From contig NZ_CP101823.1 of NCBI RefSeq assembly GCF_024498175.1, positions 2,734,987 to 2,798,986 on the forward strand: a stretch of DNA of 64,000 nucleotides, read 5' to 3'. Positions 10,533-48,370 of this stretch are shown in pieces. Source of the DNA: Haloplanus salinarum (GTDB taxonomy: Archaea; Halobacteriota; Halobacteria; Halobacteriales; Haloferacaceae). Both the position numbers and the translations under genes were made by a program. The notes beneath the pieces were generated by a model. That model did not search any database and had not been told where the DNA came from. It saw only the letters and a list, made by a program, of their open reading frames with translations. How positions within the stretch are numbered: position 1 is the stretch's first letter; each line of letters begins with the position of its first letter.

Positions 10533-10632
10533 CGGGCACGATGGGATTTGAACCCACGACCGTCGGATGGCTTCCCCCGCGGGCCGTCGGGGTTAGAAGT
10601 CCGACGCTCTATCCGGACTGAGCTACGTGCCC
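10533..10632 (-). tRNA. tRNA-Arg(TCT) with a 25-nt intron
   Basis: Read leftward from 10632 it folds with acceptor GGGCACG/CGTGCCC, D-arm GCTC...GAGC, anticodon stem TCGGA/TCCGA and T-arm GTGGGTTCAAATCCCAT. The loop CTTCTA|A carries anticodon TCT at 10597-10595. Between positions 37 and 38 a 25-nt insert (10593-10569) separates the stem halves; without it the tRNA is 75 nt. The position is canonical for archaeal introns removed by the splicing endonuclease. Introns in haloarchaea are best known in tRNA-Trp and elongator tRNA-Met, so this one is less usual. No CCA is encoded. Confidence 0.9.
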
Positions 10633-17668: not shown

Positions 17669-17710
17669 CCTCGGGACGACGACCCGCTCGCTGTCGCTCG
17701 CGGGTTGTAG

Positions 17711-17784
17711 TGGGCTCGGGCGGATTCGAACCACCGACTTCGGCCTTGTAAAGGCCGCGTCATAACCAGCTAGACCACGAGCCC
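17711..17784 (-). tRNA. tRNA-Val(TAC)
   Basis: Read leftward from 17784 it has acceptor GGGCTCG/CGAGCCC, D-arm GTC...GAC with AGCTGGTTA, anticodon stem CGGCC/GGCCG, loop TTTACAA with anticodon TAC, and T-arm GGTGGTTCGAATCCGCC. There is no intron and no encoded CCA. Confidence 0.95.
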
Positions 17785-25008: not shown

Positions 25009-25081
25009 CGTCCTGACGGAGATTTGAACTCCGGTCCCTGGCTCCGCAAGCCAAGAGGATAGTCCACTACCCTATCAGGAC
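25009..25081 (-). tRNA. tRNA-Arg(GCG)
   Basis: Read leftward from 25081 it has acceptor GTCCTGA/TCAGGAC, a D-arm with GGGTAGTGGACTATCC, anticodon stem TTGGC/GCCAG around loop TTGCGGA (anticodon GCG), and T-arm CGGAGTTCAAATCTCCG. There is no intron. Confidence 0.93.
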
Positions 25082-33204: not shown

Positions 33205-34632
33205 TCAGCGATAGCCGAGGGCTTCGAGTCGTGTCTCGATGCCCTCGTCGACGCCGGCCGCGGAGTCGTCGCGGTCGACCTCCTCCAGCATCGTCACGTG
33301 GTCGAGGACGGCCTCGCGGAGTCGGTCGCGAGCGGCGACGGCCGACGGGTCGTCGTCGTCCGCCAGGTCGGTTCGTTGCACGGGATCCGACCGGCGGTCG
33401 TAGAGCTCCTCCGCACCCGTCTCGGCGTTCCGGATGTAGACCCAGTCGGCGTCGCGGGCGCTCACCAGCAGGTCCCCCTCGTCGAGCGACCGGGGGATCG
33501 GTTGCTGGGTGACGTCCTCGCCGCGGACGGTGACCGTTACCACGGGGTCGTCCGGCGGTGCGACGTCGTCCCGGATCGTCGGAAGGAGACTCTCACCGAC
33601 CCACTCCGGCGCGGGGTCGACCCCGAGCAGGTCACAGACCGTCGGTGGAACGGCGTCGAGGCCGACGTGGTCGGGGACGCGGCCGGCCGGGAGGCCGGGA
33701 ACGTCGACCAACAGCGGGACCTGGACGAGTTCGTCGTAGAGCTTGGGATAGTGCGCGAGGTGGCCGTGGTCCATGAACTCCTCGCCGTGGTCGCCGGCGA
33801 CGACGACGGCGGTGTCGTCGGCGAGACCCGCGGCGTCGAGCGACGAGAGCAGGCGATCCAGGCTGTCGTCGACCTGTCGGACCGCAGCCTGATACAGGGC
33901 TCGCAGGTCGGCGAGGGTGCGCTCACCGACCGACCACCCCAGCCCGGTCCGGACGTGGGCGATCAGCATCCGTGCCTTGCCGACGCGGCGGTCGGTGATC
34001 TCCCGGAGGTACCGCGGCGCGGGGACGTACGGCGTGTGGGCGTCCATGTAGTGGACCCACAGGAAGAACGGCTCGTCGCTGTCCTCGACGAACGAGGTGG
34101 CCGCGCGCTCCACGTCCAGCATCCGCGAGGCGTCGGTGAAGGGTTTCTCGTCGCTGCCGCCGCGGAGGCGGTTCCCGGCCCGGCGGAACGGCGAGGTGAC
34201 GAGTTGGAGCCACGCCCCCCAGGTGGGGTGGGCGGCGACGAACTCGCCGGCGCGGCCGTCCGTGCCGCCGCCGACGAACGCGTCGAAGTCGTCGAAGCCG
34301 TCGTCGTACCCCCAGTGCTCGGTGAGGAAACCGTTGGCGGCGTTGAAGCCGCCGGTCGCGACGCCCGCCGATCGGAGCCGTTCGGCGAGGGTCGTGGTGC
34401 CGTCGACGCCGATCCGGCCGGTGTCGGCGAAGGCCGGCCGGGAGGCGAGGATCGACGGGAAGGACATCGGCGTCCAGTTGCCGTGAGCGAAGGCGTTCTC
34501 GAAGACGGTACCCCGGTCGGCGAGTTCGGCGAGTGTCGGCGTAGCGTACTCGCCGCCGTAGGGTTCGATGGCGTCGGCACGCAGGGAGTCCACGGTGACG
34601 AGAAGAACGTTGGGGACGGGCGTGTCTGTCAT
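33205..34632 (-). CDS. Sulfatase/alkaline-phosphatase-superfamily hydrolase
   Basis: The 475-residue protein begins NVLLVTVDSLRADAIEPYGG (first metal Asp), has NAFAHGNWTPMSFPSILASR where sulfatases place the modified Cys/Ser (a Thr or Ser is the candidate nucleophile here; no CxPxR), WVHYMDAHTPYVP and VVAGDHGEEFMDHG (metal Asp and His). It lacks a clear signal peptide. With GtrA next door it may modify envelope glycans or act as a phospho-sugar transferase. It belongs to the group common in haloarchaeal glycosylation clusters. Confidence 0.85.
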   Translation of the reverse strand: MTDTPVPNVLLVTVDSLRADAIEPYGGEYATPTLAELADRGTVFENAFAHGNWTPMSFPSILASRPAFADTGRIGVDGTTTLAERLRSAGVATGGFNAANGFLTEHWGYDDGFDDFDAFVGGGTDGRAGEFVAAHPTWGAWLQLVTSPFRRAGNRLRGGSDEKPFTDASRMLDVERAATSFVEDSDEPFFLWVHYMDAHTPYVPAPRYLREITDRRVGKARMLIAHVRTGLGWSVGERTLADLRALYQAAVRQVDDSLDRLLSSLDAAGLADDTAVVVAGDHGEEFMDHGHLAHYPKLYDELVQVPLLVDVPGLPAGRVPDHVGLDAVPPTVCDLLGVDPAPEWVGESLLPTIRDDVAPPDDPVVTVTVRGEDVTQQPIPRSLDEGDLLVSARDADWVYIRNAETGAEELYDRRSDPVQRTDLADDDDPSAVAARDRLREAVLDHVTMLEEVDRDDSAAGVDEGIETRLEALGYR

Positions 34633-34837
34633 ATGAGCGGTTGTCGGCGACAGCGATGGCCGTCGATGGAGCCGACCCGACACCGTCGACGACCGCTGTT
34701 ACCCCGAGTTTGAACGACGACCGTACTCAAGGTTTTGATCGTCGGCTGTCAACATCGGCGGGTGACGTGGAGCGATCCGGCGGACGGAAGACGGCGTCCG
34801 GCACGTTCAAGACGCCGGAGCGTGGACGAGCGTAGTA

Positions 34838-34946
34838 GGGCCCTTAGCTTAGTCCGGTTAAAGCGCCCGGCTCATACTGGCCCGCGACGGCACCGTCGCG
34901 GTCATGGGATACCGGGTGATCGCTGGTTCGAATCCGGCAGGGCCCA
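34838..34946 (+). tRNA. Elongator tRNA-Met(CAT) with a 34-nt intron
   Basis: Acceptor GGGCCCT/AGGGCCC, D-arm with AGTCCGGTTAAAGC, anticodon stem CCCGG/CCGGG, loop CTCATA|A with anticodon CAT, and T-arm GCTGGTTCGAATCCGGC. The intron occupies 34877-34910, between positions 37 and 38, and contains its own hairpin (CCGCGACGG/CCGTCGCGG). Mature length is 75. Introns in this tRNA are standard in haloarchaea. Its 3' end is the attachment site for the island that follows. Confidence 0.95.
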
Positions 34947-34947
34947 T
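34934..34947 (+). other. Attachment-site core within tRNA-Met
   Basis: CCGGCAGGGCCCAT recurs exactly at 40923-40936 and 41036-41049, and with 13 of 14 bases at 46773-46786. The longer match GGTTCGAATCCGGCAGGGCC (34925-34944) is shared with 41027 and 46764. These are direct repeats bounding the integrated DNA. Confidence 0.85.
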
Positions 34948-35258
34948 CCGGAGAACTCTCAGTTCCGGGCCGATTAGAAAACAGGCAATTCGAGGCTTCT
35001 AAGTCCTGTTTTCGGTGTTTCAACCACCATCGAGTAACCCCCGCTGAGACGAATGTCTACTGTTCGCCTGTTGGGGGACCTCGCCGTCGGGCGAAACTCC
35101 AACTCGAAAATAGCGCACGATTCCGCTCCGTCGCGAAGTCGTTCTCGGTTCGCTGGTCGGTCTCGCTGCATAGTCCAGTCGCTTCTCTCCCGGTAGTAGG
35201 TCGACACATGTCGCCCACCCACCACCTCACCCTCCCGTATAGGTGGTGTGTGCGGAGC

Positions 35259-35379
35259 GAGCGGCTGAGCGACCCTCCTTGTGGGGGTCCGAAGCCGCTC
35301 GACCTCGACCGTCCACCGCAAGCGGCGGAGCGGCCCCCTCACATGGGGGCCCGGAGCCGCGCACGCCGCCGATCGGCGG
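35259..35379. repeat. Stem-loop array in front of the replication initiator
   Basis: Three inverted repeats follow each other: outer arms GAGCGGCT/AGCCGCTC (35259-35300) around GACCC/GGGTC; GCGGC/GCCGC (35322-35360) around a perfect 7-bp GGCCCCC/GGGGGCC; and the palindrome CCGCCGATCGGCGG (35366-35379). The first two share layout and loop position. This is a plausible double- or single-strand origin for the HUH protein. The rest of 34948-35498 holds no gene I can support. Confidence 0.6.
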
Positions 35380-35498
35380 AGAGGCGGCGAACGAGATGCG
35401 GTGCGGTTGCCGTAGACTCCTCGGTATCGCCCAGTGACTGACTCGACCGGCCCGGTATCGGATCGGTCGCACGCCCTTCGTGAGTTGCTACTATACCG

Positions 35499-37550
35499 AT
35501 GAGTACCGCTGGCTCCATCTCCGACGGATGTAACACATCCCCCCTTAGTAACTACCTCCTCGAAGAGTTGGAGTCAGAGGGCCTGCTCGGCCGTGGGCAA
35601 TTACTCGATGGGTCATACACTGACCGCGATCAAGATCGCGCACGTCTCCTTCAACTGGTCGCAGAACACCCAGAGGGTATTATACGCTCTCGTCTCGTCC
35701 ATGTCGGACTATACGGAATCCGGCTCTACGGTACTGATCCGTGGCGAAACACCGCCGGGTTCGCTGACCTCGACTACTATAATGCGCAAGAGCGCCACGA
35801 CACGGCACTCGACAAGATTTCAGAGAAAACCTCGACCGTGAATCAGCTTGACGGTAGCGACTCAGAGTACCAGTTTACGTACAGATTTACGAAAGCCGCT
35901 GAGGAGGCCGATTTCGTCCGTCTCGAATCCTCAGGCTCGACAACTACCGTCCACCCGACACTGCGGCTTCTTGACTTGATTTCATCAGGCATTAGTGAAA
36001 CAGAGAATCCCGACGACGGAACAATCTCCGATCGTAATTTCGTTCGTAGAATGCTTTCCTCCGTAGATTCGCACCTTTCAGACGCTCAGAAAGCAGCTTC
36101 CGCTGAGGGACTTCTTCGTTACATCCGGCGCATCGATGACTATCGGCTGGCTTTCGATGTCCACGTTCGCTCTCGGAAAGGCACTGAGACGCGCAGGATG
36201 ACCAAGGAGTACAAGACTCGGTTCAACTCCGAGGATCGTCACGGCCGCTCGTTTGCACGGTTACAGGATTCACTAGACGCACGCACCGAGCCCGGCGCTA
36301 CTGCGGCCTTCATGACGGCCACAACTGATCCTAACCTACACGACTCGCTGCTCGATTCGATACAGAATATTAATCCGAATTTCCACCGGCTTCAGCAGTA
36401 CCTCTCTTCGGACCCGTCGACGAAAGATGATACTCGGAAAGTTGGTGTTCCCGGCTGGCGTCCGGACTTGGATGGCGAAGTTACCGGTCGGCCGCGTGAA
36501 ACGCTCGACTACCTGAAAGTCCTCGAATTCGCCTCCGGTGGTCTTCCACATCTGCATACGCTCTATTTCAACCCTCCGCGGCGCGAATCTGATGGGATGC
36601 CGTGGCTGATCGACAAAGGGGAGTTGTCGCAGAAATGGTCCGATTACGGGCAGGGTTCCATTGTCGACGTTCGGCCGCTGGTGTTTCGAGACGACCTCCG
36701 CCCAGCTGGTGACCCGGACGATCCCGATGACGACGGTCTTTGCCACCTCGTTCCGTATGTCGAGTCCTCACTTGAACAGATAGGCGCGTCGACGTTCATA
36801 CAAGGGTGTACCGAGGAGACAATCCTCAACTGGTACCGCCGAGAGCACGATCTCGATGGCGTACGATTCAATTCATCTGAGGGATGGGTCGACTGGTACC
36901 GCTACGGTGATAACGACCTCTCCCGCGAAGAGGCCGCGAAACGGGCCGGAAAGCACGATCTCGTCGATATGGAAGGCGATAATGAGGTTATTTTTCAGAA
37001 AACTGCTGGCTCATATCTCGGAAAGTATCTGAGTGCTACCTATGGGGCGCTTTCAAACGTGACTGAGTCGTTCGAAGACCGAGAAACGCTAACATCTGGA
37101 GAAGACGACTCGAAAGAGGCTGTCTGGAAACTGGCACTCTATTGGGCGACAGATAAGCAATTCTGGTCCACCTCACGCGGTATTGAGCGAGCAATTGATC
37201 CGGAAGATCAGGGGCTAGAAGATGATATTCGCGAGGCTGCTGAGTGGGCGGCTCAGGATACGGTCCTTAACCTATCTCATGCATACGCTGAAACGTGGGT
37301 TCATGAGCCCAATCTCGACGAACTCATCGAATCTGGTCGGGCACAGGCTACACTCCGCGAATTGGCTACCGACTACTGGATCTCGATTGATTACTGTGGT
37401 GCTTTCCCATACTGGGATATGCCTGTACAAACGTCACAAGCGGTGTCTCTGGAAATTCTCGAAGAGAATGTAAACGATCCAGATAGTCCCTCTATCGCCG
37501 AGGATGCTGATCGACCACCACCATTAGCACAGGTCTGGGGAGAAGCTTAG
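35499..37550 (+). CDS. HUH-endonuclease replication initiator (rolling-circle Rep)
   Basis: The 683-residue protein shows the three rolling-circle motifs in order: motif 1 FMTATTDP at residues 271-278, motif 2 GGLPHLHTLYF with the metal-binding His351 and His353, and motif 3 AGSYLGKYLSATY with candidate nucleophile Tyr506 (Tyr510 also possible) and Lys509. The N-terminal 250 residues include a possible winged-helix stretch (LLQLVAEHPEGIIRSRLVHVG). It would nick the element's origin and start rolling-circle replication, as in haloarchaeal small plasmids and pleolipoviruses. A stem-loop array lies 120 bp upstream. Base composition is lower in GC than the chromosome. Confidence 0.85.
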   Translation: MSTAGSISDGCNTSPLSNYLLEELESEGLLGRGQLLDGSYTDRDQDRARLLQLVAEHPEGIIRSRLVHVGLYGIRLYGTDPWRNTAGFADLDYYNAQERHDTALDKISEKTSTVNQLDGSDSEYQFTYRFTKAAEEADFVRLESSGSTTTVHPTLRLLDLISSGISETENPDDGTISDRNFVRRMLSSVDSHLSDAQKAASAEGLLRYIRRIDDYRLAFDVHVRSRKGTETRRMTKEYKTRFNSEDRHGRSFARLQDSLDARTEPGATAAFMTATTDPNLHDSLLDSIQNINPNFHRLQQYLSSDPSTKDDTRKVGVPGWRPDLDGEVTGRPRETLDYLKVLEFASGGLPHLHTLYFNPPRRESDGMPWLIDKGELSQKWSDYGQGSIVDVRPLVFRDDLRPAGDPDDPDDDGLCHLVPYVESSLEQIGASTFIQGCTEETILNWYRREHDLDGVRFNSSEGWVDWYRYGDNDLSREEAAKRAGKHDLVDMEGDNEVIFQKTAGSYLGKYLSATYGALSNVTESFEDRETLTSGEDDSKEAVWKLALYWATDKQFWSTSRGIERAIDPEDQGLEDDIREAAEWAAQDTVLNLSHAYAETWVHEPNLDELIESGRAQATLRELATDYWISIDYCGAFPYWDMPVQTSQAVSLEILEENVNDPDSPSIAEDADRPPPLAQVWGEA

Positions 37551-37835
37551 TGCTGCTTCAACTGTTGACTTGCAAGTCTCTCAATTGCTGTAGTGGTATA
37601 GGTGTGCAAGACTCAGAGGATTGAGCTCAGCACGCTGATCGTATTTATTTCGTGATGTTAGTGCTGAACTATCCGTATACCGAGTCGGCAGACTGAACGC
37701 TCAAAAATTAGGTCAGGCGTCCACAAAATATTAGATACTTAATAAATAAAGGGTCGGACTCGTCGCTAATTTACTCTTCACCGACGGAAAGAAGCTGTAA
37801 TATACTTGGATATTAGACGCAATAGTGAACATTAC

Positions 37836-38813
37836 ATGATTAGTTTCACTGAATGGCTCTCTGAGAGCGTCTCCACACTCCGGAATGGAGACCGATCACT
37901 ACCGGCACGGCTTCTACGGCCGGCTTATTATATTTATGTCGGTGGATTACTCACCCTCAACCAATACGTCACGTACGGGACGAATATTTACGATCGGGAG
38001 TGGGACGTGCTTCTCATCCTTGATGCCTGTCGAGTCGATGCATTACGCGAGGTTGCAGAAGAATATGATTTTATTACGGAAGTTGAATCGATGCGTTCCG
38101 TCGGAAGTACCTCTTTTGAGTGGTTAAGCCACACATTCACTACTGAATATCGAGATGAAATCAGCCGAACTGCCTATGTGACCGGAAATGCCTACTCTGA
38201 GCGAGTGTTCGGACAGGGTGGTGAAACTGGATCGGCCGCAATACCCTTTGGTCCAGCGGAGTACGACGTAGTCGCTCCCGACGAATTCGGTTATTTAGAG
38301 GAGGTATGGCGTGCCGACATATCCGATGAATGGATTGTTGGCGAGGGTGAACAGACTGGGCGGCATCCCCGATATATCACAGATCGAGCGATTTCCGTTA
38401 AACGTTCTATCGACCCGGAGCAATTGATGGTTCATTATATGTATCCACACGATCCGTTCCCATTAGCTGGAGAGGATCTCTATCGACCATTCGAGGCGCT
38501 TAAGTCCGGAACCGCCTCGCGGGAAGAAGTGTGGAATGCTTATCTTGATACGCTCCGCTTGGTTCTCGATAGCGTGGAACTGCTGTTAGAAAATATAGAT
38601 GCCGACCGTGTAGCAATCACTGCGGACCATGGCGAGGCGTTCGGTGAGTATGGCTTCTATCGACATGTTATCGGCTGTCCGATACCCTGTATGCGTCAAG
38701 TACCATGGGTCGAGACAGTAGCGACCGATGAGGCAACTTACGAGCCGACGGCACCTGCTCCTGAAAGCGATCTCGGCGTTGAAGAGCAATTAGAACACTT
38801 GGGCTATCTGTAG
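37836..38813 (+). CDS. Sulfatase-like hydrolase (alkaline phosphatase superfamily)
   Basis: The 325-residue product has a membrane-proximal N-terminal part, then WDVLLILDACRVDALREV (first metal Asp), a Ser-rich turn VGSTSFEWLSHTF (candidate nucleophile Thr/Ser), VHYMYPHDPFPLAG and ITADHGEAFGEYGFYRH (metal Asp/His). It belongs to the superfamily of the gene at 33205 but to a shorter branch. Cargo on the mobile element; it may alter host surface glycans. An AT-rich promoter-like stretch (TGTAATATACTTGG) precedes it; 37551-37835 has no gene. Confidence 0.75.
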   Translation: MISFTEWLSESVSTLRNGDRSLPARLLRPAYYIYVGGLLTLNQYVTYGTNIYDREWDVLLILDACRVDALREVAEEYDFITEVESMRSVGSTSFEWLSHTFTTEYRDEISRTAYVTGNAYSERVFGQGGETGSAAIPFGPAEYDVVAPDEFGYLEEVWRADISDEWIVGEGEQTGRHPRYITDRAISVKRSIDPEQLMVHYMYPHDPFPLAGEDLYRPFEALKSGTASREEVWNAYLDTLRLVLDSVELLLENIDADRVAITADHGEAFGEYGFYRHVIGCPIPCMRQVPWVETVATDEATYEPTAPAPESDLGVEEQLEHLGYL

Positions 38814-38955
38814 CGGGTGATTCAAATTGGAGGCTTTCGCGCTAAGTATGCGCTGTGTATCTTGCAGGGTTTCAAAAATATGAACTATATTTGGCAAGTT
38901 GATAGCGGGGTAGTGTACCTGCAAGTTCGGGGGTGAATCTACACTGAGTCTGTTT

Positions 38956-39306
38956 TTAGGGTGGTAGACCTTGTAGAATATAGCCCGCACCCAGCTTGGA
39001 TATTTTATATTTTCCTCGACTTTCTTTTTCAACTAATCCACCGGCGTTTAATGCATTCAGACGACGCGAAACCCCTGCACGGGACCGATCAATATTGTCC
39101 GCGATCACCGCCGGCGTGAGAGTGAGATTCGACCGCATCAAGACTAACAAAATGTCTCGATCGGTCTCTGTGATCCACTCGTAATCTTCTCGATCCTCCC
39201 TGAGCCACATCTCTTCTGCTTCAGAAAAATCAGGAACCCCATCTATGACTATCTCAGTAAATCTTTCAGGAATCTCGGGGTCGTCCTCTTCTTCGCTGTC
39301 GGCCAT
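38956..39306 (-). CDS. Winged-helix transcriptional regulator
   Basis: The 116-residue product has an acidic N-terminus (MADSEEEDDPEIPERF) and a winged-helix domain: ITETDRDILLVLMRSNLTLT, PAVIADNIDRSRAGVSRRLN, ALNAGGLVEKESRGKYKISK, ending LGAGYILQGLPP. This is the MarR/ArsR-like form common on haloarchaeal plasmids and viruses. It faces the sulfatase-like gene and diverges from the zinc-ribbon/integrase pair, so it may control their expression. ATG 39306 is preferred over the upstream in-frame start at 39360. Confidence 0.8.
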   Translation of the reverse strand: MADSEEEDDPEIPERFTEIVIDGVPDFSEAEEMWLREDREDYEWITETDRDILLVLMRSNLTLTPAVIADNIDRSRAGVSRRLNALNAGGLVEKESRGKYKISKLGAGYILQGLPP

Positions 39307-39506
39307 ATGACTTCGATCACCGCCTACACAAAAAGATGTTTCCCGTTGATTGACCTCCAAGTGCTGATCATTAATTAGTGATAAACACTAAGTGACCTCG
39401 GATTAAACTCGGTGCCTGAGAGCTACCTAGTCGGTCTGTGGTGATTCCGTAGGTCTGTGAGAAAGGCCGTGCTGGTACCACGGCCACGGTAGTTCTCGTG
39501 ACCAGT

Positions 39507-39818
39507 ATGCACGGAACCACCGCGGGGCTTTCCAGCCCCAAACAATCGGACGTATCGATCAGTGAAAACTCCGACGGGAATTGTTCCTACTGCGGAGATC
39601 ATGCAGATGGGATTGACGCACTCCGGCGGACAGCCGTCTGTCAACGTTGCGCCCGAATACTGTCTGAGTGGGGTCGCTGCAAGAACTGCAAGAAAACAAT
39701 CACTCCACAATCCCCCAATAGACTCCCGTTCTATGACCGACTTGTCCACGGTTACTTCGCCCACTTTCTGTCTGCCCATGTGGATCGCTCAGAATGGGGC
39801 CCTCAGGAGGAGCAATGA
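39507..39818 (+). CDS. Small zinc-ribbon protein coupled to the integrase
   Basis: The 103-residue product has two treble-clef-like knuckles, CSYCGDHADGIDALRRTAVC with QRCARI, and then CKNCKK, six to seven Cys in all. Its TGA overlaps the integrase ATG (ATGA), and the integrase Shine-Dalgarno AGGAGG lies within its 3' end. In SNJ2, small proteins co-transcribed with the integrase are needed for integration; this gene is a candidate equivalent. ATG 39507 is used; a GTG at 39498 is possible. Confidence 0.75.
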   Translation: MHGTTAGLSSPKQSDVSISENSDGNCSYCGDHADGIDALRRTAVCQRCARILSEWGRCKNCKKTITPQSPNRLPFYDRLVHGYFAHFLSAHVDRSEWGPQEEQ

Positions 39819-40852
39819 CCGACGACCTCCAGCCGCTCTCGCCACCCGAGGGCATCGAGATGTACCTCGAAGCTCGTCGCGACGAGTTGAGTGATGGAAC
39901 TCTGAGCGGTCAGAAGTACCGTCTTGATTCTTTCCTCCAATGGTGCAAGGAGGAAGAGCTAGAGAATCTGAACGAGCTTGACGGTCGCGATCTCTACCGG
40001 TTCCGTGTCTGGCGTCGAGAAGGCAACGGTGACGGTCGTGAGCCGATTACACAGGTGACCCTTCGAGGTCAGCTCTCGACGCTCCGTGCATTCCTCCGCT
40101 TCGCTGAGGAGGTCGACGCAGTTCGCGAAGGTCTTCGCGCGGACGTGCCGCTCCCGACAGTGAGTAGCGGCCAGAACGTGAGTGATACCACTCTTAGCCC
40201 CGATCGAGCGGGAGATATTCTGGAGTATCTGAATCGCTACCACTACGCAAGCCGTACACACGGGATTCTGCTCCTGATGTGGCACACCGGCGCGCGGGTT
40301 GGTGCGATTCGCTCGCTGGATCTTGCTGATGTCGATCTCAGTAACGATCGACCGGGTATTCAGTTCCGGCACCGTCCGGAGACTGACACGCCGCTGAAAA
40401 ACAAGGAGAAGGGGGAACGCTGGAACGCGATCAGTCCAAACGTGGCTCGGGTTCTTCAGGACTACATCGACGGACCACGCGAAGAGATGCGCGACGAACA
40501 CGGCCGTTCTCCGTTGTTTACCACCGAATACGGTCGTCCATCTCTGACCACGTTCCGAGATGCGGTGTATCGAGTCACCCGTCCCTGCTGGCGCGGGGCC
40601 GAGTGTCCGCACGATAGAGACCTGGACAACTGCGAGGCGACTGATCTGGTTCACGCGAGTAAGTGCCCCTCGTCTCGATCTCCGCACGACGTTCGGAGCG
40701 GTCGGGTGACTGCATACCGTCGCGAGGACGTTCCCCGACGAGTTGTCTCTGACCGGCTGAACGCGAGTAGCGATATCCTCGACGAACACTACGACCGTCG
40801 GAGTGCTCGTGAAAAGGCAGAGCAACGGCGCGATTACCTCAGAGACCTATGA
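39815..40852 (+). CDS. int: Tyrosine integrase, SNJ2-type
   Basis: The 345-residue recombinase has a SAM-like core-binding N-terminal domain (MYLEARRDELSDGTLSGQKY, residues 17-36) and a catalytic domain with Arg161 (HTGARVGAIRSLDL), Lys195/197 (TPLKNKEKGERW), His291 and Arg294 (SPHDVRSG) and nucleophile Tyr326 (ILDEHYDRRS). A Cys cluster (Cys258, 264, 273, 284) just before His291 looks like a zinc insertion and is typical of haloarchaeal integrases of this group. It lies 70 bp from the right attachment copy. The Shine-Dalgarno AGGAGG at 39806 supports ATG 39815. Confidence 0.93.
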   Translation: MTDDLQPLSPPEGIEMYLEARRDELSDGTLSGQKYRLDSFLQWCKEEELENLNELDGRDLYRFRVWRREGNGDGREPITQVTLRGQLSTLRAFLRFAEEVDAVREGLRADVPLPTVSSGQNVSDTTLSPDRAGDILEYLNRYHYASRTHGILLLMWHTGARVGAIRSLDLADVDLSNDRPGIQFRHRPETDTPLKNKEKGERWNAISPNVARVLQDYIDGPREEMRDEHGRSPLFTTEYGRPSLTTFRDAVYRVTRPCWRGAECPHDRDLDNCEATDLVHASKCPSSRSPHDVRSGRVTAYRREDVPRRVVSDRLNASSDILDEHYDRRSAREKAEQRRDYLRDL

Positions 40853-40922
40853 CGGATCAGGTTTCAACCCACCAGGGGAGCAGTAGAGAAGCGAGGGGTA
40901 GCGAAAGCGCAGTACGTCGCTC

Positions 40923-41049
40923 CCGGCAGGGCCCATGAGAACCGCCGAGCGACGGCGAGGCGTGTTCGAATACCCCCGCGGATTCGAAGCAGGGAGTGGA
41001 GCGGGCGACGCGAGCGGAACGACCGAGGTTCGAATCCGGCAGGGCCCAT
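40923..41049 (+). repeat. 113-bp unit bounded by two attachment cores
   Basis: CCGGCAGGGCCCAT at 40923-40936 and 41036-41049 encloses an inverted T-arm (CGGATTCGAAG... and ...GGTTCGAATCCGG). The unit has the same plan as the scars beside tRNA-Val and both tRNA-Arg genes. It may be the remnant of a second integration or a composite right end. Confidence 0.7.
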
Positions 41050-41526
41050 CCAGAGTTTACACGATTCTGAGCTAACGGATTCAACCGTGTGACTGCCTGA
41101 AACCCATATTTCCACTTTTGCCGAGCCGAACATAAATTTCTGGCAGTCTGGAGTTCAATCATACTGTGAATGCGGGTCGCCGCTGTCGTGCCTTCGTTGA
41201 TCACTGAGAGCGATACCCCCGTAATCATTCGCTCGTTGTGGGGGGCAACACGCGTTTGGAGCGCCGTTTCCCCTGTTATCCCTCTCTCGCTGTGGGGGCT
41301 CCACAGCTGCGAACTGCTAGTAGGTCACCACGGCGACGCATCAGATGTACACTGACTATCTGCCACGAATGGCGTGACCGATACAGAGGATGTAGTCAGC
41401 ACGGGGACTGCGTTATTTTCTCAAAATGAATCCTGAACCAACCGATAGAACTTGCCTGCGTAGTTATCGACCGTCTCGGATTGCCACCGAGAAATATCAG
41501 AAATACATCAAAACGGGTACCCTCCC

Positions 41527-41817
41527 CTACGCTAATAGTAATTCAGGGACCGATGCAAGGACACCGAGGAAGACAACGAAGGTACCGACGGCTAGCATTC
41601 GAAGTGTTCCTGCTGAACGTCGTCGGTCCGGTGGCAGCGACTCGGCGACTCCGGAGAATCCAAGCCCGATAGCAAAAAAGACGAAAAAGTCAGAAGCGTT
41701 GAGCACGACAGCAGTGTACACCCAAATAAGGAGGCAGATGAACGATAAGAACAACATGATGAGCCCCTTCCTTCGTCCATCTGGCTCACGGAACACCATC
41801 TGTGGAAGTGACTCCAT
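41527..41817 (-). CDS. Small membrane protein
   Basis: The 96-residue product has a short entry (MESLPQMVFREPDGRRKG) and three hydrophobic segments: LIMLFLSFICLLIWVYTAVV, FFVFFAIGLGFSGVAESLPP and MLAVGTFVVFLGVLASVPEL. It has the look of a haloarchaeal hypothetical family. The frame could extend to a TTG at 41922, but ATG 41817 is the natural start. Mobile-island cargo; function unknown. An opposite-strand frame here is Ser/Thr/Lys-rich and rejected. Confidence 0.68.
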   Translation of the reverse strand: MESLPQMVFREPDGRRKGLIMLFLSFICLLIWVYTAVVLNASDFFVFFAIGLGFSGVAESLPPDRRRSAGTLRMLAVGTFVVFLGVLASVPELLLA

Positions 41818-42159
41818 ATGTACCAGCAATAGTTCGGCCCTGTAAAGCGTGCGGATAACTGAAAACCGGCCTGTACTTTCTCTTTCATCTGCATCTTCCA
41901 CCGATCTATTTGCCAGCTCCAAATAGACACCACTGTTTCACTGTGCTCGGTAAGAGCTCCAATAATATGATACAAAATGAACGTACATGCTGAACGATTC
42001 GCGCAGGCGTCTTTACCGATACGAGCGCTGTATTCAGCAGCGTCCACAAGATCTCCTCAGTTTCTGTTAGTAGTGAGTTGCGAGATACAGAGAGTGAATT
42101 CAGCAATCAGATATGGTCTATGCCGAGCGAATTTTTCTATAGAACCACACATTCATAAT

Positions 42160-42510
42160 ATGGATTCCCGTGCTGGCGAAGCATCTTTGCTGACGCACCG
42201 TCTATGTCAGTCTATCACCAGAAAGAAACTCGAATCAGAGGTTAGACAACTTTATGAGCACCTTGCAGCGACCCGAGAGCGCCCCATCGAACGGGAAGCG
42301 AGCCGGTGGATCGGCGAAGCGGAGGCCATCACTGATGATCTGGTCGGCCCTGAGATCGCAGATCTCGATTCAAGTGTGATTCAAAATAGGATTGGACATG
42401 TCGCAGAACTACTCTCGAACATCGAAGGGACTGGCGATTCAACCGCCAACGAACACGTTGAAGCAGCCCGCGACCTCGCCACCACGATTCTGGAACCCAA
42501 CACGGAGTAA
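42160..42510 (+). CDS. Small helical protein
   Basis: The 116-residue product is soluble, acidic and helical: SITRKKLESEVRQLYEHLAA, REASRWIGEAEAITDDLVGP, VIQNRIGHVAELLSNIEGTG. I recognise a haloarchaeal flavour but no function. It sits between two copies of a TATTCAGCAG-containing sequence (42019-42040 and 42557-42579), suggesting it moved as a cassette. A TATA-like TTTTTCTATAG lies 25-30 bases upstream. Confidence 0.65.
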   Translation: MDSRAGEASLLTHRLCQSITRKKLESEVRQLYEHLAATRERPIEREASRWIGEAEAITDDLVGPEIADLDSSVIQNRIGHVAELLSNIEGTGDSTANEHVEAARDLATTILEPNTE

Positions 42511-42794
42511 TCAGAGTTTTGTAAAAACCATCGCTGATCCGTATGTACCTCTACAAGATACGCGCTCTGTATTCAGCAGGACTGCTGAAACCTATCACCA
42601 AGCGATGGTTTCAACAAGGCCGATCTGTTGGCGCACCCGCCAGGGAATCATAGTAATGTGAAACCAAGTCGAACATTTATAGATTTGCCAAGGGGCTGAC
42701 GAGAGGGGCTACCATCGTCGCTCCTTCTGTGGGTCTCCCTACGAGTAGTCCTAGTTGAGTCGTGTTGGTAGTGAAGAGCGCGATTCGGACCGGG

Positions 42795-43628
42795 TTACAC
42801 CGTGCGGTGTGTCTCTACTGTTTCTGGGGCGTATCCAGCCTTCTGCAGGTTCGTGAGGACTTGGTTGATGGTTTCGAGGGTGTCATACAGGTTTTCTGTG
42901 GTGCGGCCGCTGCTGAGAAACCCGTTGCTGTCAGTGTTCTCGACGAGGAGGTTGGTGTGGGCGACGTCGTTGCGTAGGTCAGTGACATCGTGAAGTCGGG
43001 AGTCTGCACCGCCTTTCGTCGAGAAGCCGCACGCTTGCCAGCAGGCTTCGACGCTGGTGACGATGGTTTCGAGCGTGGAGAATTGTGCGTAGTGGAGTTC
43101 GGCTAACGCGACGTTGGCGGCTTGTGCGTCTTCGTACCGGTCTTCGATGTCGTCAAGTTCGTCTGCGGTGACCGGCGTGGTTTTCCAGTCCGGTTTCTTG
43201 TCGAGGATGAGTTCGCGGAGGTGTTCTTCGAGGTAGGTGATGCGGTCGAAGAGGTAGATGCGCGCTGGGGCGGTGTTGAGATCGGCGCGGGTGAGGATAC
43301 CGGTGACGTGGTTGTGGCCGCCGAGAAAGTAGACTGGGTTCTCAATGAGTGCGGACAGGATGTCGGTGAACGAGGTGTCTCCGCTGATCATGTAGCCGAT
43401 GGTCAGTGGGGTGAGGTGGTCGTCGAGGGTATCGCCGTCGTCGTCGGTTGTGACGTCGTCTTTGTGGATGAATCCGATTGGGTCGTCGTTCGCGTAGACC
43501 GGGGCGGCGTCGTAGCCGTTCTCAGCGAGCCACTCGGCAGCGGTACTTGGTGGCGTATCATGTTGAAGATGCTCGACAGAGCGAGTGGCGAGTTCGGCTG
43601 CGGTGCAGTCGTAGAGATCGCGGGGCAT
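42795..43628 (-). CDS. CBS-domain protein with HEPN-like C-terminus
   Basis: The 277-residue product begins with a CBS pair (about residues 8-120: ATRSVEHLQHDTPPSTAAEW, DAAPVYANDDPIGFIHKDDV, HNHVTGILTRADL), modules that bind adenine nucleotides. The C-terminal half is helical and contains DLRNDVAHTNLL, where Arg219 and His224 fit the Rx4H motif of HEPN ribonucleases. This suggests a nucleotide-gated RNA-cutting or defence protein, an inference from motif and island location. ATG 43628 is chosen over 43703. It is divergent from the gene at 43740. Confidence 0.7.
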   Translation of the reverse strand: MPRDLYDCTAAELATRSVEHLQHDTPPSTAAEWLAENGYDAAPVYANDDPIGFIHKDDVTTDDDGDTLDDHLTPLTIGYMISGDTSFTDILSALIENPVYFLGGHNHVTGILTRADLNTAPARIYLFDRITYLEEHLRELILDKKPDWKTTPVTADELDDIEDRYEDAQAANVALAELHYAQFSTLETIVTSVEACWQACGFSTKGGADSRLHDVTDLRNDVAHTNLLVENTDSNGFLSSGRTTENLYDTLETINQVLTNLQKAGYAPETVETHRTV

Positions 43629-43709
43629 ATCGCTCGGTGGGGAGCCGAGGGTAGTCAAAATGAGGGTGAAGAAGTGAAGGGGAGAAGTGCCGATCCACCA
43701 CAAAATTAA

Positions 43710-43722
43710 TGTCTATAGGACA
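43710..43722. promoter_or_regulatory. Operator-like inverted repeat in a divergent promoter
   Basis: TGTCTATAGGACA is an inverted repeat (TGTC/GACA) in the 111-bp gap between two divergent starts, next to the AT-rich run TATATTTCTATTTAATTA. The position suits an operator for one or both genes. Confidence 0.4.
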
Positions 43723-43739
43723 TATATTTCTATTTAATT

Positions 43740-44096
43740 ATGCTTGAAGGGCATTTTGAATCGGCGGGGGCGAGTATCGAATACGGTGCTACTGGCTGCC
43801 TCTTCCCCGTCGATGAACTGGATGCGACAGTCCTCCAGTACCGAGATGCCCAGATCGCGCTCGACGATGTCAATGGATCAGATGTCATCGTCGTCGCCCC
43901 GACGAGTCTTGCAACCAGTTACTTCCTCACCCAGCACGCACTCACCGCAATCCCGGTCGACAGTCTCTCCACTGCGGTTCAGACCCAGCTCGCTAACGAA
44001 CTTGACGACCCCGTAGATACGTTCGAGCTCATCCAGATCGGCAAGTGGAACCGAGACAGTCCAAACCACTCGCTCACTGAATTCACGAGCGTCTGA
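43740..44096 (+). CDS. Orphan protein divergent from the CBS-HEPN gene
   Basis: The 118-residue product reads like a small alpha-beta domain (GCLFPVDELDATVLQYRDAQ, GSDVIVVAPTSLATSYFLTQ) with no leader or membrane helix. I do not recognise it. The divergent arrangement with a putative HEPN protein raises the possibility of a paired control or antitoxin role, without direct sequence support. Confidence 0.55.
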   Translation: MLEGHFESAGASIEYGATGCLFPVDELDATVLQYRDAQIALDDVNGSDVIVVAPTSLATSYFLTQHALTAIPVDSLSTAVQTQLANELDDPVDTFELIQIGKWNRDSPNHSLTEFTSV

Positions 44097-44147
44097 ACCC
44101 GGTCTGCAGACGCACAGAACCCAGAAATCCCCACCAAACGACTTCGA

Positions 44148-44417
44148 ATGACTGAGACACTCGCCGATGAGTATCCGGAAGCCGCCCCGTACATCCAGCA
44201 AGCTGTCGACGAACACGGCGAAGACTGGGTGCTGGAGAATTACTACCAGCAACTCTACCCGCTTGGGAGACTCATGAAGATGCCCGAAAAGGACGAACTC
44301 CCGTTCTACGACGCGGACAAGCACGACACGATGACGGAGAAGGAACGGATCGAAATGTATCAAGCGTGGGCCGAGTATCGAGAAAACCTCCGTACCGGAA
44401 CGAAACCTAACGAGTGA
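44148..44417 (+). CDS. Small acidic orphan protein
   Basis: The 89-residue product contains ADEYPEAAPYIQQAVDEHGE, DWVLENYYQQLYPLGRLMKM and EKERIEMYQAWAEYRENLRT. It is Tyr-rich, acidic and predicted helical. It follows the previous orphan by about 50 bp on the same strand and may be co-transcribed. No family is recognised. Confidence 0.55.
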   Translation: MTETLADEYPEAAPYIQQAVDEHGEDWVLENYYQQLYPLGRLMKMPEKDELPFYDADKHDTMTEKERIEMYQAWAEYRENLRTGTKPNE

Positions 44418-44460
44418 CTCCCACCCTACATTTTTCTCAGCGGTAGTTCTTGAGTGACGT

Positions 44461-44634
44461 ATGGATTTGGATCGGGCGTGTGGTGCCCTCCTTGGGCTAG
44501 CGTGTGGGGATGCGCTTGGCCGGCCAGTCGAGTTTACGTCTGCGTCGGAGATCAGTGCTAAGCACGGCCGGCTTGACGAGATGGTCGGGCACGGCACGTG
44601 GAACCAGCCAGCCAGGGTGAAAGTAGAATGCTAA
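44461..44634 (+). pseudogene. ADP-ribosylglycohydrolase (DraG family), N-terminal fragment
   Basis: The 57-codon frame starts MDLDRACGALLGLACGDALG, then RPVEFTSASEIS, the hallmark start of DraG-type hydrolases that remove ADP-ribose from proteins. The frame turns to unrelated residues after GHGTWNQPA and stops at TAA. The di-metal Asp motifs and the other 200 or more residues are missing. The break point suggests recombination between islands. Confidence 0.75.
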
Positions 44635-44671
44635 TCTGCAGTAGTGCGTGGCCGGTTTCGGCCTGTTGAGG

Positions 44672-44935
44672 ATGAATCTGATAACGAACGAAACAGAGTC
44701 TCGGACAGTTGAGTGGGCGACACCCACGCCAGGTGGTGGTGAGTATCTGGATACCTTGGTATTGAGCCGTGACCAAGCACGTGAGTATGGTGACGAGCTT
44801 ATGATGTCCTTACAGGTGGATGGAGGGATGCTGCAAGAGCGGGGGATAGATCCCGCTGAGCCGTTTGCGTGGAAGATTGAAGACGGGGAGTTGCTGATAA
44901 GCAAATCTCACGTCAATCGTTCGAAACCGTTGTAG
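44672..44935 (+). CDS. Orphan protein
   Basis: The product of about 87 residues contains TVEWATPTPGGGEYLDTLVL, REYGDELMMSLQVDGGMLQE and WKIEDGELLISKSHVNRSK. It could start at ATG 44648 or 44672; the latter is chosen. Strand-rich and acidic, unrecognised. It directly follows the DraG fragment and may be unrelated cargo. Confidence 0.5.
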   Translation: MNLITNETESRTVEWATPTPGGGEYLDTLVLSRDQAREYGDELMMSLQVDGGMLQERGIDPAEPFAWKIEDGELLISKSHVNRSKPL

Positions 44936-45121
44936 AGAGCGACCGAGGCGATGCCAAGTACGCCAATCAAGTACTAGACTACCGAGCGAGACGAAGGGTA
45001 GGCGACCCACGGTGGTGGTCGGTCGCGTCGATCGGAATCGAGACACTGGTCGTTCTCACGGTCGCTAGCGGTCATAGTGAGTCGTTTCTGCTGTCACCGA
45101 TTATATTCAGAGAACAATTCT

Positions 45122-45168
45122 CGAATAGCCTATTTCTAGTTAGCCTATTCTAGATTAGTCTATTCGAG
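45122..45168 (+). promoter_or_regulatory. Iterated operator-like repeats before the ATPase gene
   Basis: Three near-copies of TAGCCTATTCTAG occur (AATAGCCTATTTCTAG, TTAGCCTATTCTAG, ATTAGTCTATTCGAG) within 50 bases of ATG 45201. The spacing of about 14-15 bases and the AT content suggest a repressor-binding array. The remainder of 44936-45121 shows nothing else. Confidence 0.5.
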
Positions 45169-45200
45169 TGTTTTATTTGACTGGACGCCAGTCAGAGGAT

Positions 45201-46592
45201 ATGGAGCGCTTCGTGGATCGGGAGGACGAACTCGGCCGGCTTCGAGATTGCTATGCGTCGGATGACGCCGACATGGTCGTGATTTTCGGGCGTCGCCGTC
45301 TTGGGAAGACCGAACTCGTCCGTGAGTCACTGGAAGGCCGCGATGACGCCGTCCTGTACCAGGCAACTGAAACAACTCAACAGATCCAACTGGATGCGTT
45401 CGTGGACGTGGCGGCAGAGTCGTTTCCAGGAATCGACCGGATCGAGGATGAGTGGGAATCACTACTCGGGTATCTCGCTGACCAAGATGCGGTCGTCGTG
45501 CTGGACGAGTTCCCATACCTGATCGATGCCGACGAGAGCCTCCCATCGGTGATCCAGCGACTGTGGGATCAGGAGTTGCGTGACACTGGCGTGACCCTCG
45601 TCCTCATCGGATCCTCGATCAGTATGATGGAGGAGGCGACGCTCCTCGGGAACAGTCCGCTGTACGGCAGGTTCACTGAGAAGATCGATCTCCGGCAGCT
45701 CGATTTTGTCGCCGCGCGCACGTTCTTCCCCGAGAGCTATACCCCCGAACAACTGCTGCTCGCGTGGGGTGTGTTTGGCGGGACCCCGTACTACTTGGAC
45801 GGCGTCGAACTGGACGACGACCTCGGAACGGTCGTTCAGCAGTCGCTGCTGTCACGGCAGGGATTCCTGCACGACGAGCCGGAGTACGTGCTTCGCACCG
45901 AATTGACCGAGCCGAACCGGTACTTTGCCATTCTGAAAGCGATCGCGGCCGGGAACGCGACGTCGAACGAGATCGCGCAAACGATCGGGATCGACGGCAA
46001 GCAGATTTCGACGTACACGCAGAAACTGGAGCGGCTACGACTGGTCGAACGTGAGGTGCCGGTGACGGAGGACAAGACGAAGTCACGCCGCGGACGGTAC
46101 CGGATTCTCGATCCGTTGTTCAGGTTTTGGTTCCGGTTCGTCTACGGCAACGAAGACCGGTACGAGCGGTTGGGCGTCGACGCCTACGAGACGGTCATCG
46201 AACCGGAGCTTGCGGACTTCGTGAGTCGGGAGTTCGAAAACCGCTGTCAAGCCATCCTTCCTGAGTTCTATCCCGATCTGAGGTTCACCGATATCGGCCG
46301 CTGGTGGTACAACGAGTACGAGGTGGACGTGGTTGGGTTCGCTGCAGACGGGACGATGGTGACGGGGGAGTGCAAGTTCACGTCCGCGCCGCTCGATTAC
46401 AGCGCGCTCGCCTCGCTCGAAGAGCATACTGAGGAGATTCGATGGTCGCCCGATGGGAGCGAAGTCAAGCACGAGTATGCCCTGTTCGCCCGAAACGGGT
46501 TCACACAATCCGTTCGGGATGCAGCGGCCGACCGCGACGATCTGCGGTTGTTCGACCTCGAGCGGATCGTCGACCCAAGGGCGTCGCACTAG
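45201..46592 (+). CDS. Archaeal ATPase with DUF234-type nuclease-like tail
   Basis: The 463-residue protein starts MERFVDREDELGRLRDCYAS and has Walker A VIFGRRRLGKTEL and Walker B AVVVLDEFPYLID (STAND/MNS-type archaeal ATPase), a winged helix (NEIAQTIGIDGKQISTYTQK) and a C-terminal domain with NEYEVDVVGF and TGECKFT that fits a PD-(D/E)xK centre. Such proteins are widespread on archaeal mobile elements and suspected in defence or DNA transactions. ATG 45201 is preferred over GTG 45168, which falls in the repeat array. It is near the right island boundary. Confidence 0.85.
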   Translation: MERFVDREDELGRLRDCYASDDADMVVIFGRRRLGKTELVRESLEGRDDAVLYQATETTQQIQLDAFVDVAAESFPGIDRIEDEWESLLGYLADQDAVVVLDEFPYLIDADESLPSVIQRLWDQELRDTGVTLVLIGSSISMMEEATLLGNSPLYGRFTEKIDLRQLDFVAARTFFPESYTPEQLLLAWGVFGGTPYYLDGVELDDDLGTVVQQSLLSRQGFLHDEPEYVLRTELTEPNRYFAILKAIAAGNATSNEIAQTIGIDGKQISTYTQKLERLRLVEREVPVTEDKTKSRRGRYRILDPLFRFWFRFVYGNEDRYERLGVDAYETVIEPELADFVSREFENRCQAILPEFYPDLRFTDIGRWWYNEYEVDVVGFAADGTMVTGECKFTSAPLDYSALASLEEHTEEIRWSPDGSEVKHEYALFARNGFTQSVRDAAADRDDLRLFDLERIVDPRASH

Positions 46593-46763
46593 AGGAGTCG
46601 AAGGGTTCGAGGTCGGTCATCATTGGTCTGTCTGGGTGAAGGCGACAGAGGACGAATTCAAACCACGCAGTACAGCGACTGAAAGCGTTAAAATCGCTTG
46701 CTGGCAGGGGACGAGTTTCTGGATACGCCCCGGCAGGCTCCATCCCACTTTTTACTCGGTCGC

Positions 46764-46785
46764 GGTTCGAATCCGGCAGGGCCCA
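46764..46785 (+). other. Distal copy of the tRNA-Met 3' end (attachment site)
   Basis: GGTTCGAATCCGGCAGGGCC followed by CA matches the tRNA-Met T-arm and acceptor exactly over 22 bases, nearly 12 kb from the tRNA. It marks the right end of the second island. The flanking 46593-46880 region holds no gene. Confidence 0.8.
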
Positions 46786-46880
46786 CCCCACCGTTTCCTC
46801 GATCGCTCCGTCGCCGTCGACCGGCTTCGAGGCCTGTGATCACCCTGACGAAAGGGTGGTCGTCCTCGTCTCTCCACCCA

Positions 46881-47769: not shown

Positions 47770-48370
47770 ATCTCACGTGGGGAAGTACGTTCGCCCCCAT
47801 CGGGACGGCGTGGCGTTGTTCACGATCGACACGCAGAACGACTTCACGCGGCCGGGCGCTCCGGCGGAGGGCGAGGGCACCGCCGAGGCGGTGTCGCGGA
47901 TGCGGCGTCTCGTGGAGGCGTTCCAGGGGGCAGGAGCGCCGATCGTCCGCGTCGTGCGCCTGTACGAGGCCGACGGATCGAACGTCGGCCAGTGTCGGCG
48001 GGCGGGGATCGAATCCGGCGCGGGAGTCGTCCGGCCCGGAGGGCGCCGAACTGGCCGTGGAGTCGAAGCCGTCCGCGGACGTGCGCCTGGACGCCGATCG
48101 ACCGTTGCGAGGAGAGTGTATAGTAGCGATTGAAACTGTTTGCCCAGCCGATCGTACGCAGTACTGCGATCGGCCGTGCAATGACTTTCAATCGCTACTA
48201 TAGGCGGTGGGGCCCGCGGAGTGGACCGCGTACAAGCCTCGGTGGAGTGCTTCCCGCCGGACGAACCTCGACGACTTCCCCGCCGCCCGGTCGATCGACA
48301 CCGTGGTCGTCCGTGGCTGTCACTTCCCGGACTGTCCGCGAGCGACGAGTTGGCGGACATCGGCGTGGCG
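47770..48370 (+). pseudogene. Isochorismatase-like hydrolase split by a palindromic element
   Basis: The first part reads VALFTIDTQNDFTRPGAPAE (catalytic Asp region) through GAPIVRVVRLYEADGSN, then slips frame near 48036, where about two bases are lost before GAELAVESKPSADVRLDADR. An 84-bp palindrome (48119-48202) interrupts it. Downstream, GPAEWTAYKPRWSASRRTNL and VVVRGCHFPDCPRAT (catalytic Cys) continue, and a further frame slip gives SDELADIGVAVWETADVVG. The family hydrolyses amides or isochorismate. The gene is dead by at least two frameshifts and one insertion. Confidence 0.8.
48119..48202. mobile_element. 84-bp palindromic miniature element
   Basis: Perfect 17-bp terminal inverted repeats TATAGTAGCGATTGAAA/TTTCAATCGCTACTATA flank an inner hairpin (CCGATCG...CGATCGG around GCAGTACTGC). 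It carries no coding capacity. Its presence inside a recognisable gene shows it was inserted; TATA or TA may be the target duplication. Confidence 0.8.

Follow-up and report, generated by a model that had tools for sequence, protein, structure and literature searches.

The window, that is, the whole stretch of 64,000 nt that was analysed (G000:C1:2734987-2798986), is part of the chromosome of the haloarchaeon Haloplanus salinarum. It contains a tRNA-Met gene with an intron, which is not called by ARAGORN under default settings, and after it a small element, here termed E1, with genes for a replication protein (Rep), a cargo protein, a divergent winged-helix (wHTH) regulator, a small CxxC protein and a tyrosine integrase (Int). 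A second island lies further downstream (Table 1).

Table 1. Features at the tRNA-Met locus, in window coordinates
Feature	Position	Strand	Basis or remark
tRNA-Met with intron; 3' end is the integration site	34838-34946	+	Rfam tRNA 57.8 bits; ARAGORN with introns allowed: tRNA-Met (cat)
attL core CCGGCAGGGCCCAT	34934-34947	+	Exact repeat; relative G135 has the empty site
Leader; right half of an ORF predicted in the circular form only	34948-35441	+	Comparison with L071
GC-rich hairpin block (GGCCCCC-TCACAT-GGGGGCC and neighbours), candidate replication origin	35315-35390	+	Just upstream of Rep
Rep, 683 aa, HRPV-2/6/Halfgib1-type rolling-circle initiator	35499-37550	+	phrog_12863; HLH and YxGKY motifs
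Cargo: 335-aa alkaline-phosphatase-superfamily (sulfatase/PglZ-like) protein, likely start 37836	37806-38813	+	Distant Pfam matches
Divergent wHTH regulator, virion-less clade	38956-39360	-	MarR_2/HTH_20 above cut-off; phrog_2440; tree
CxxC (zinc-ribbon-like) protein, likely start 39507	39498-39818	+	Upstream of Int, overlapping
SNJ2-type tyrosine integrase, 345 aa	39815-40852	+	R161, H291, R294, Y326 conserved
attR core, true right end of E1	40923-40936	+	About 70 bp past Int stop; G135 empty site
113-bp unit ending in a copy of the tRNA-Met 3' end	40937-41049	+	Chromosomal, predates E1, outside the element
Second island, no integrase, no virion gene	41050-46772		Between the 41036 and 46773 att copies
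CBS-domain protein	42795-43703	-	Second island; weak match to a defence-candidate model
ATPase_2/DUF234 protein	45168-46592	+	Second island; PADLOC PDC-S27 match, E=8e-42
Fourth att copy, right end of second island	46773-46786	+	13/14 nt of core

A repeat search of the window finds the 14-bp sequence CCGGCAGGGCCCAT in exact copies at 34934, 40923 and 41036, as reported in a first-pass annotation of this DNA, which overlooked the fourth copy at 46773; there, the 19-nt tRNA end recurs at 46767-46785 with 19/19 nt. At up to two mismatches, 0.76 matches to CCGGCAGGGCCCAT would be expected by chance, and the 19-mer tRNA end TCGAATCCGGCAGGGCCCA occurs six times at up to three mismatches, against a chance expectation of 0.06. 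The same annotation had placed the element at 34934-41049. Its left end holds, while its right end has to be moved to 40936. The tRNA-Met is present in 11 of the 11 same-genus relatives searched, and one of these, G135, which lacks E1, has a precise empty site in which the window sequence from 40937 on has its counterpart (93% over 128 bp) immediately behind an uninterrupted tRNA-Met. The insertion therefore spans 34934-40936, about 5,989 bp plus the core, and has att copies and an intact integrase gene. The 41036 copy was ruled out as attR, since G135 has the 113-bp unit without E1. Between 35 and 47 kb the GC content is 48-60%, compared with about 70% in the surroundings, so that the low-GC region exceeds the element first reported. 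The sequence from 41050 on directly follows the tRNA in genomes G391 and G393, where parts of 41050-46618 recur, including a 92% match to the second-island ATPase gene next to tRNA-Met in G393; the region thus consists of at least two separate islands, and the shared chromosome resumes near 48.5 kb.

Repeated tRNA ends are also seen elsewhere in the window. In the units at 10533-10632, 17710-17784 and 25009-25081, all on the minus strand, and at 40937-41049, the last 14-22 nt of a tRNA recur 102-139 bp downstream as exact or near-exact copies, and the stretch between the two often includes an inverted T-arm copy, so that the unit can form a hairpin. Among 40 distinct tRNAs from the fetched loci, a copy of this sort is present in the 300 bp downstream of five and upstream of none. 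Perhaps these are attachment-site units for tRNA-targeting integrases. In G289, a relative without the element, tRNA-Met is directly followed by six 123-bp units in perfect tandem (L101; G289:C1:3218500-3219900, from about 279), each of which ends in the tRNA-Met 3' end, so that attachment sites are lined up in series there. A 36-nt inverted repeat at 48119-48202 (86%, 12-nt loop), close to where the low-GC region ends on the right, is likely to be of a dispersed, MITE-like kind, since G173 and G135 have a similar palindrome after the att unit.

With regard to replication, the profile search proposed in the first-pass annotation placed Rep in phrog_12863 (E=3.6e-180, residues 8-666), a full-length similarity to the alphapleolipovirus Reps of the HRPV-2/6 type. 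It is 42% identical to the Reps of HRPV-2/6, 40% to that of Halfgib1 and 80-86% to Reps in Halobellus. An SNJ2-type Rep was considered and rejected, as the three betapleolipovirus Reps searched, those of SNJ2, HHPV4 and HRPV-9, gave no match to the window Rep. Describing E1 as SNJ2-like is hence right for its integrase but not for its Rep, and it is Halfgib1 that comes closest in layout. The length of 683 residues given earlier for Rep is correct; as for the HUH class that went with it, the motifs HLH (351-353) and YxGKY (506-510) are invariant in the 16 Reps aligned, the Pfam family REP_ORF2-G2P matches weakly (E=0.01), and the predicted structure, with a pLDDT of 46, is too poor for checking the HUH fold. 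Among plasmids, one weak match to Rep was found, in Thermococcus prieurii, in agreement with the reported resemblance of one alphapleolipovirus Rep family to pTP2-like plasmids (PMC10599561).

The hairpin block upstream of Rep is kept both in L071, a virion-less locus of Halobellus clavatus, and in the provirus L070, and from its position and conservation it is a candidate replication origin. When attL and attR are joined in silico, int comes to lie directly upstream of rep on the same strand, and an ORF spanning attP is created, with 193 codons in the window (start at about 40850) and 96 codons in L071. ORFs of this kind have been described from pleolipoviruses that integrate (PMC7911831). 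The leader of L071 holds the attP-spanning ORF, an AbrB-like gene and a CxxC gene as separate units. A deletion of about 540 bp in the window leader would appear to have fused the attP-spanning ORF to the 3' end of the CxxC gene, with loss of the AbrB gene and most of the CxxC gene, and the E1 copy may be impaired.

The integrase is 68.8% identical to those of SNJ2 and HHPV4 at 97-100% coverage, and its catalytic residues (R161, HDVR291-294 and Y326) are invariant, so that the R...HxxR...Y pattern is kept; it is thus of the SNJ2 type by sequence relationship, catalytic residues and tree. The attachment site has the corresponding traits, namely a tRNA 3'-end target, a 14-bp core and an att copy about 70 bp past the int stop, a spacing which is similar in L071 and in another virion-less locus, L048, and amounts to 63 bp in Halfgib1. 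The stop of the CxxC gene overlaps the Int ATG (ATGA at 39815); both this overlap and the divergent winged-helix gene had been recognised in the first-pass annotation. The CxxC protein has relatives in Halobellus rufus (L081, 63% identity) and in L071 (59%). As a homologue of SNJ2 Orf2 or of the Halfgib1 counterpart it was rejected, with none detected by BLASTP, and it is equivalent to them by position only. The statement that accessory proteins are needed for SNJ2 integration has to be withdrawn, since these proteins boost integration without being required for it (PMC8371274). Rep and Int are both intact genes, and their dN/dS values (Rep 0.07-0.10, Int 0.10) indicate purifying selection, which speaks against long-term decay.

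Virion genes (VP3-like, spike, ORF6/ORF7 and ATPase) were not found between 34000 and 50000 of the window in a six-frame tblastn with the proteins of seven pleolipoviruses, queries that do detect virion genes in about 20 other loci. Domain and profile searches of the E1 proteins gave no match to virion families either, and the earlier claim that spike and other virion genes are missing is borne out, this absence being one of homology, with genes called by ORF length. Among 391 Halobacteria genomes, sampled at one genome per species, Rep matches occur in 61, and 40 Rep loci were fetched and scored for Rep, Int, att copies and virion markers. This search for the same gene order, likewise suggested at the outset, yielded 14 loci besides the window with Rep, Int and matching att copies, 5.5-8.7 kb in size and free of virion markers; the rest comprises about 20 full or near-full proviruses and a few fragments. 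The common layout is tRNA-attL-Rep-cargo-wHTH(-)-Int-attR, and 13 of the 15 virion-less loci, window included, adjoin a tRNA found by ARAGORN. Named members are found in Halobellus clavatus, H. rufus and H. captivus, and a more distant one in Salinibaculum litoreum. The closest relative, that of Halobellus clavatus (L071/L083; Rep 86%, Int 91%), likewise sits at tRNA-Met, so the virion-less form at this tRNA occurs in a second genus too. In public contigs no clear free circular copy was seen, a 5.6-kb H. rufus contig having neither terminal overlap nor an intact att core. Three outcomes that the first-pass annotation had named as speaking against it, namely a lack of relatives, an integrase outside the SNJ2 group and overlooked virion genes, did not come about.

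The gene in the slot between rep and the regulator had been described as a sulfatase, of which a distant match to the alkaline-phosphatase superfamily remains (Sulfatase E=0.0036, PglZ E=0.014, both short of the Pfam cut-off). A paralogue with 74-75% identity resides in a host polysaccharide cluster together with glycosyltransferase, flippase and sulfatase genes, so that a host-derived gene from a haloarchaeal surface-glycan or polysaccharide locus is the likely source. A full sulfatase gene (33205-34683, minus strand, E=1e-36) lies directly upstream of tRNA-Met; it is not closely related to the E1 cargo, and its nearness is probably coincidental. The other virion-less loci carry a KAP NTPase, a type IIG restriction-methylase, a GmrSD pair, DUF4145/HEPN proteins or a STAND-like TPR ATPase, as well as several cargo proteins without any match. 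Defence-like cargo is present in about half of the virion-less loci, and the slot is a place to seek new archaeal defence genes. Pleolipoviruses bear defence-type genes too, Halfgib1 a cytosine methylase and HHPV4 a restriction enzyme (PMC10101028), and the type of cargo therefore fails to separate viruses from virion-less elements.

The trees of Rep, integrase and regulator tell different histories. On the Rep tree, the virion-less state requires seven changes, at least six of them forced, and virion-less Reps interleave with those of local viruses. The integrase tree requires five changes and includes two purely virion-less clades; the integrases of the window, L071 and L048 form a virion-less clade (100/99) beside SNJ2/HHPV4. 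The wHTH tree, built on only about 100 columns, groups ten virion-less regulators at 100/97; one other sequence, doubtful and on a long branch, intrudes into this clade. The idea of a wHTH type wholly missing from viruses was rejected, both types being one broad family. Forcing the Reps of the window, L071 and L048 together is rejected (AU p=1e-84), as is forcing together those of the ten-member integrase clade (AU p=3e-5). Furthermore, where one genome has both a virion-less element and a provirus, what the two have in common is mainly Rep with as much as 280 bp of upstream sequence (77-85% nt). Since the regulators form approximately one virion-less clade while the Reps interleave with those of local viruses, Rep appears to have been exchanged, and we infer a virion-less chassis that swaps its replication module with viruses while its regulator and integrase remain in lineages of their own. 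An exchange between plasmids and viruses, as proposed for Pleolipoviridae, thereby becomes directly testable.

These histories bear on whether E1 is a decayed provirus, a Halfgib1-like pleolipovirus whose virion block was deleted and which is now a passive remnant. The gene order of E1 is colinear with that of Halfgib1 minus the virion block, the left leader is shortened relative to L071, and the interleaved Reps with their repeated changes of state are also what decay would predict. Notwithstanding, decay seems decidedly improbable, given the selection acting on Rep and Int, the precise att core and empty site, the identical virion-less form at tRNA-Met in a second genus, the tblastn search, by which no fragment of a virion gene is left in E1, and the regulators and integrases that fall in virion-less clades with independently varying cargo. 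The earlier wording that the element "keeps only" replication and integration genes, which implied loss from a virus, does not agree with this placement of E1 in virion-less lineages with an exchanged Rep.

A satellite, which would replicate by its own virus-type Rep and be packaged in the vesicles of a resident or superinfecting pleolipovirus, is a possible but unlikely alternative. It would explain why Rep and the upstream hairpin block are common to viruses (74-85% nt) when most other sequence is unrelated, and E1-type cargo resembles that of phage satellites; to our knowledge, no packaging signal has been described for the pleolipovirus family, which counts against it. Halobellus clavatus contains a full provirus (L082, Rep 84%) and a virion-less element (L083, Rep 86%) in one genome, and this pair offers a natural test of the satellite question. 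A complete provirus is likewise present in the host of the window, beside tRNA-Tyr (G000:C1 near 2,486,000-2,498,000; about 3263-15200 of L152, G000:C1:2483000-2502900); it has the VP3, spike, ORF6, ORF7 and ATPase genes and an SNJ2-type integrase, and after it comes a further integrase and wHTH set, which is partial. However, the Rep of this provirus is of the unrelated DUF1424 type, integrase-gene sequence is all that the provirus shares with E1 at a meaningful E-value, and IMG/VR contigs hold no virion-less relative, the three loci found there all being viruses. A strong pleolipovirus ATPase is found in 6 of 14 virion-less genomes versus 45 of 391 (p=0.0025), but the most affected genus does not show the excess (3/6 vs 9/21, p=0.52), which is also weak in the other genera (p=0.03), in statistics with one genome per species, no tree control and an incomplete genus list. 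Once split by genus, co-residence was rejected as proof of a satellite; the data are compatible with one and do not demonstrate it. Slightly more doubtful is the broader proposal that virion-less elements in general are pleolipovirus satellites, in which a regulator-integrase chassis would repeatedly take the Rep and origin of a local virus for copying and packaging and repay the host with anti-virus cargo. If true, archaea would have their own equivalent of PICI/P4-type satellites, living on vesicle-like viruses.

The integrative plasmid is favoured over the satellite, and E1 (34934-40936) is probably an integrative rolling-circle plasmid related to pleolipoviruses, belonging to a maintained virion-less lineage rather than being a recent wreck. 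In such a plasmid, the integrase would recombine the 14-bp core at the tRNA-Met 3' end for insertion or excision, and the divergent wHTH regulator probably represses int and holds the integrated state. In the circle, int would read over attP into the Rep region, so that full expression of Rep is probably coupled to excision. In SNJ2, the assembly of a replication operon on excision has been shown (PMC13107129), and by analogy E1 may have a switch of this kind. Rep, as its family, its motifs and the conserved hairpins suggest, would then nick the origin in the hairpin block and start rolling-circle replication. The single slot between rep and the regulator would carry exchangeable cargo, here a predicted phosphatase/sulfatase-fold enzyme and in relatives restriction, KAP/STAND NTPase or HEPN-like genes, and transfer between cells would need something that E1 does not encode, be it mating, vesicles or virus particles. 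A genomic island, whose Rep and Int would serve the maintenance of the cargo only (addiction or defence) with no real extrachromosomal life, is very improbable: the other island at the same tRNA-Met does have defence-type genes, but a conserved Rep and hairpin block would be of no obvious use without a circular phase, and an attP-spanning ORF that exists only in the circle is present in both the window and L071. The plasmid would also provide a small natural replicon for haloarchaeal genetics.

Among known systems, Halfgib1 (MW344766), a Haloferax provirus at tRNA-Arg (PMC7911831), is by gene order the closest virus in layout, with att-Rep-...-wHTH(-)-CxxC-Int-attP, the same Rep and Int families and a tRNA site; it differs in its 16.3 kb, its VP3, spike, ORF6, ORF7 and ATPase genes and identities of only 40% for Rep and 60% for Int. 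The betapleolipoviruses SNJ2 and HHPV4 share with E1 the integrase (69%), a small CxxC or accessory gene overlapping int, the divergent wHTH and a similar int-att spacing, whereas their Rep is non-homologous, they have virion genes and 15-17 kb, and SNJ2 Orf2 has no detectable homology to the CxxC gene. The pL6-family plasmids of Haloquadratum are likewise virus-related replicons of about 6 kb without spike genes (PMC11431627, PMC5974055); unlike E1, they are episomal, lack an integrase and have a betapleolipovirus-type replicase. Most similar in kind are two tRNA-Ala elements of about 6.5 kb that encode an integrase and a replicase of the alphapleolipovirus type but no spike, and that a 2024 paper on the pL6 family termed a possible group of integrative plasmids (PMC11431627). 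They agree with E1 in size, tRNA bound, integrase near a short tRNA repeat, replicase type and lack of a spike, and differ in the tRNA used (tRNA-Ala versus tRNA-Met) and in an R6-type ATPase, which is not recognised in E1. An element of Salinibaculum litoreum at tRNA-Ala (L087) was recovered here as well, with a Rep of the same family, 40% identical to that of E1. E1 has the features of those two elements and thus belongs to a kind already described, to which the present analysis adds the number of members, the regulator clade, the exchange of Rep and the cargo slot: pleolipovirus-type replication and integration modules without virion genes are far commoner than the two reported, with at least 15 loci in the sample.
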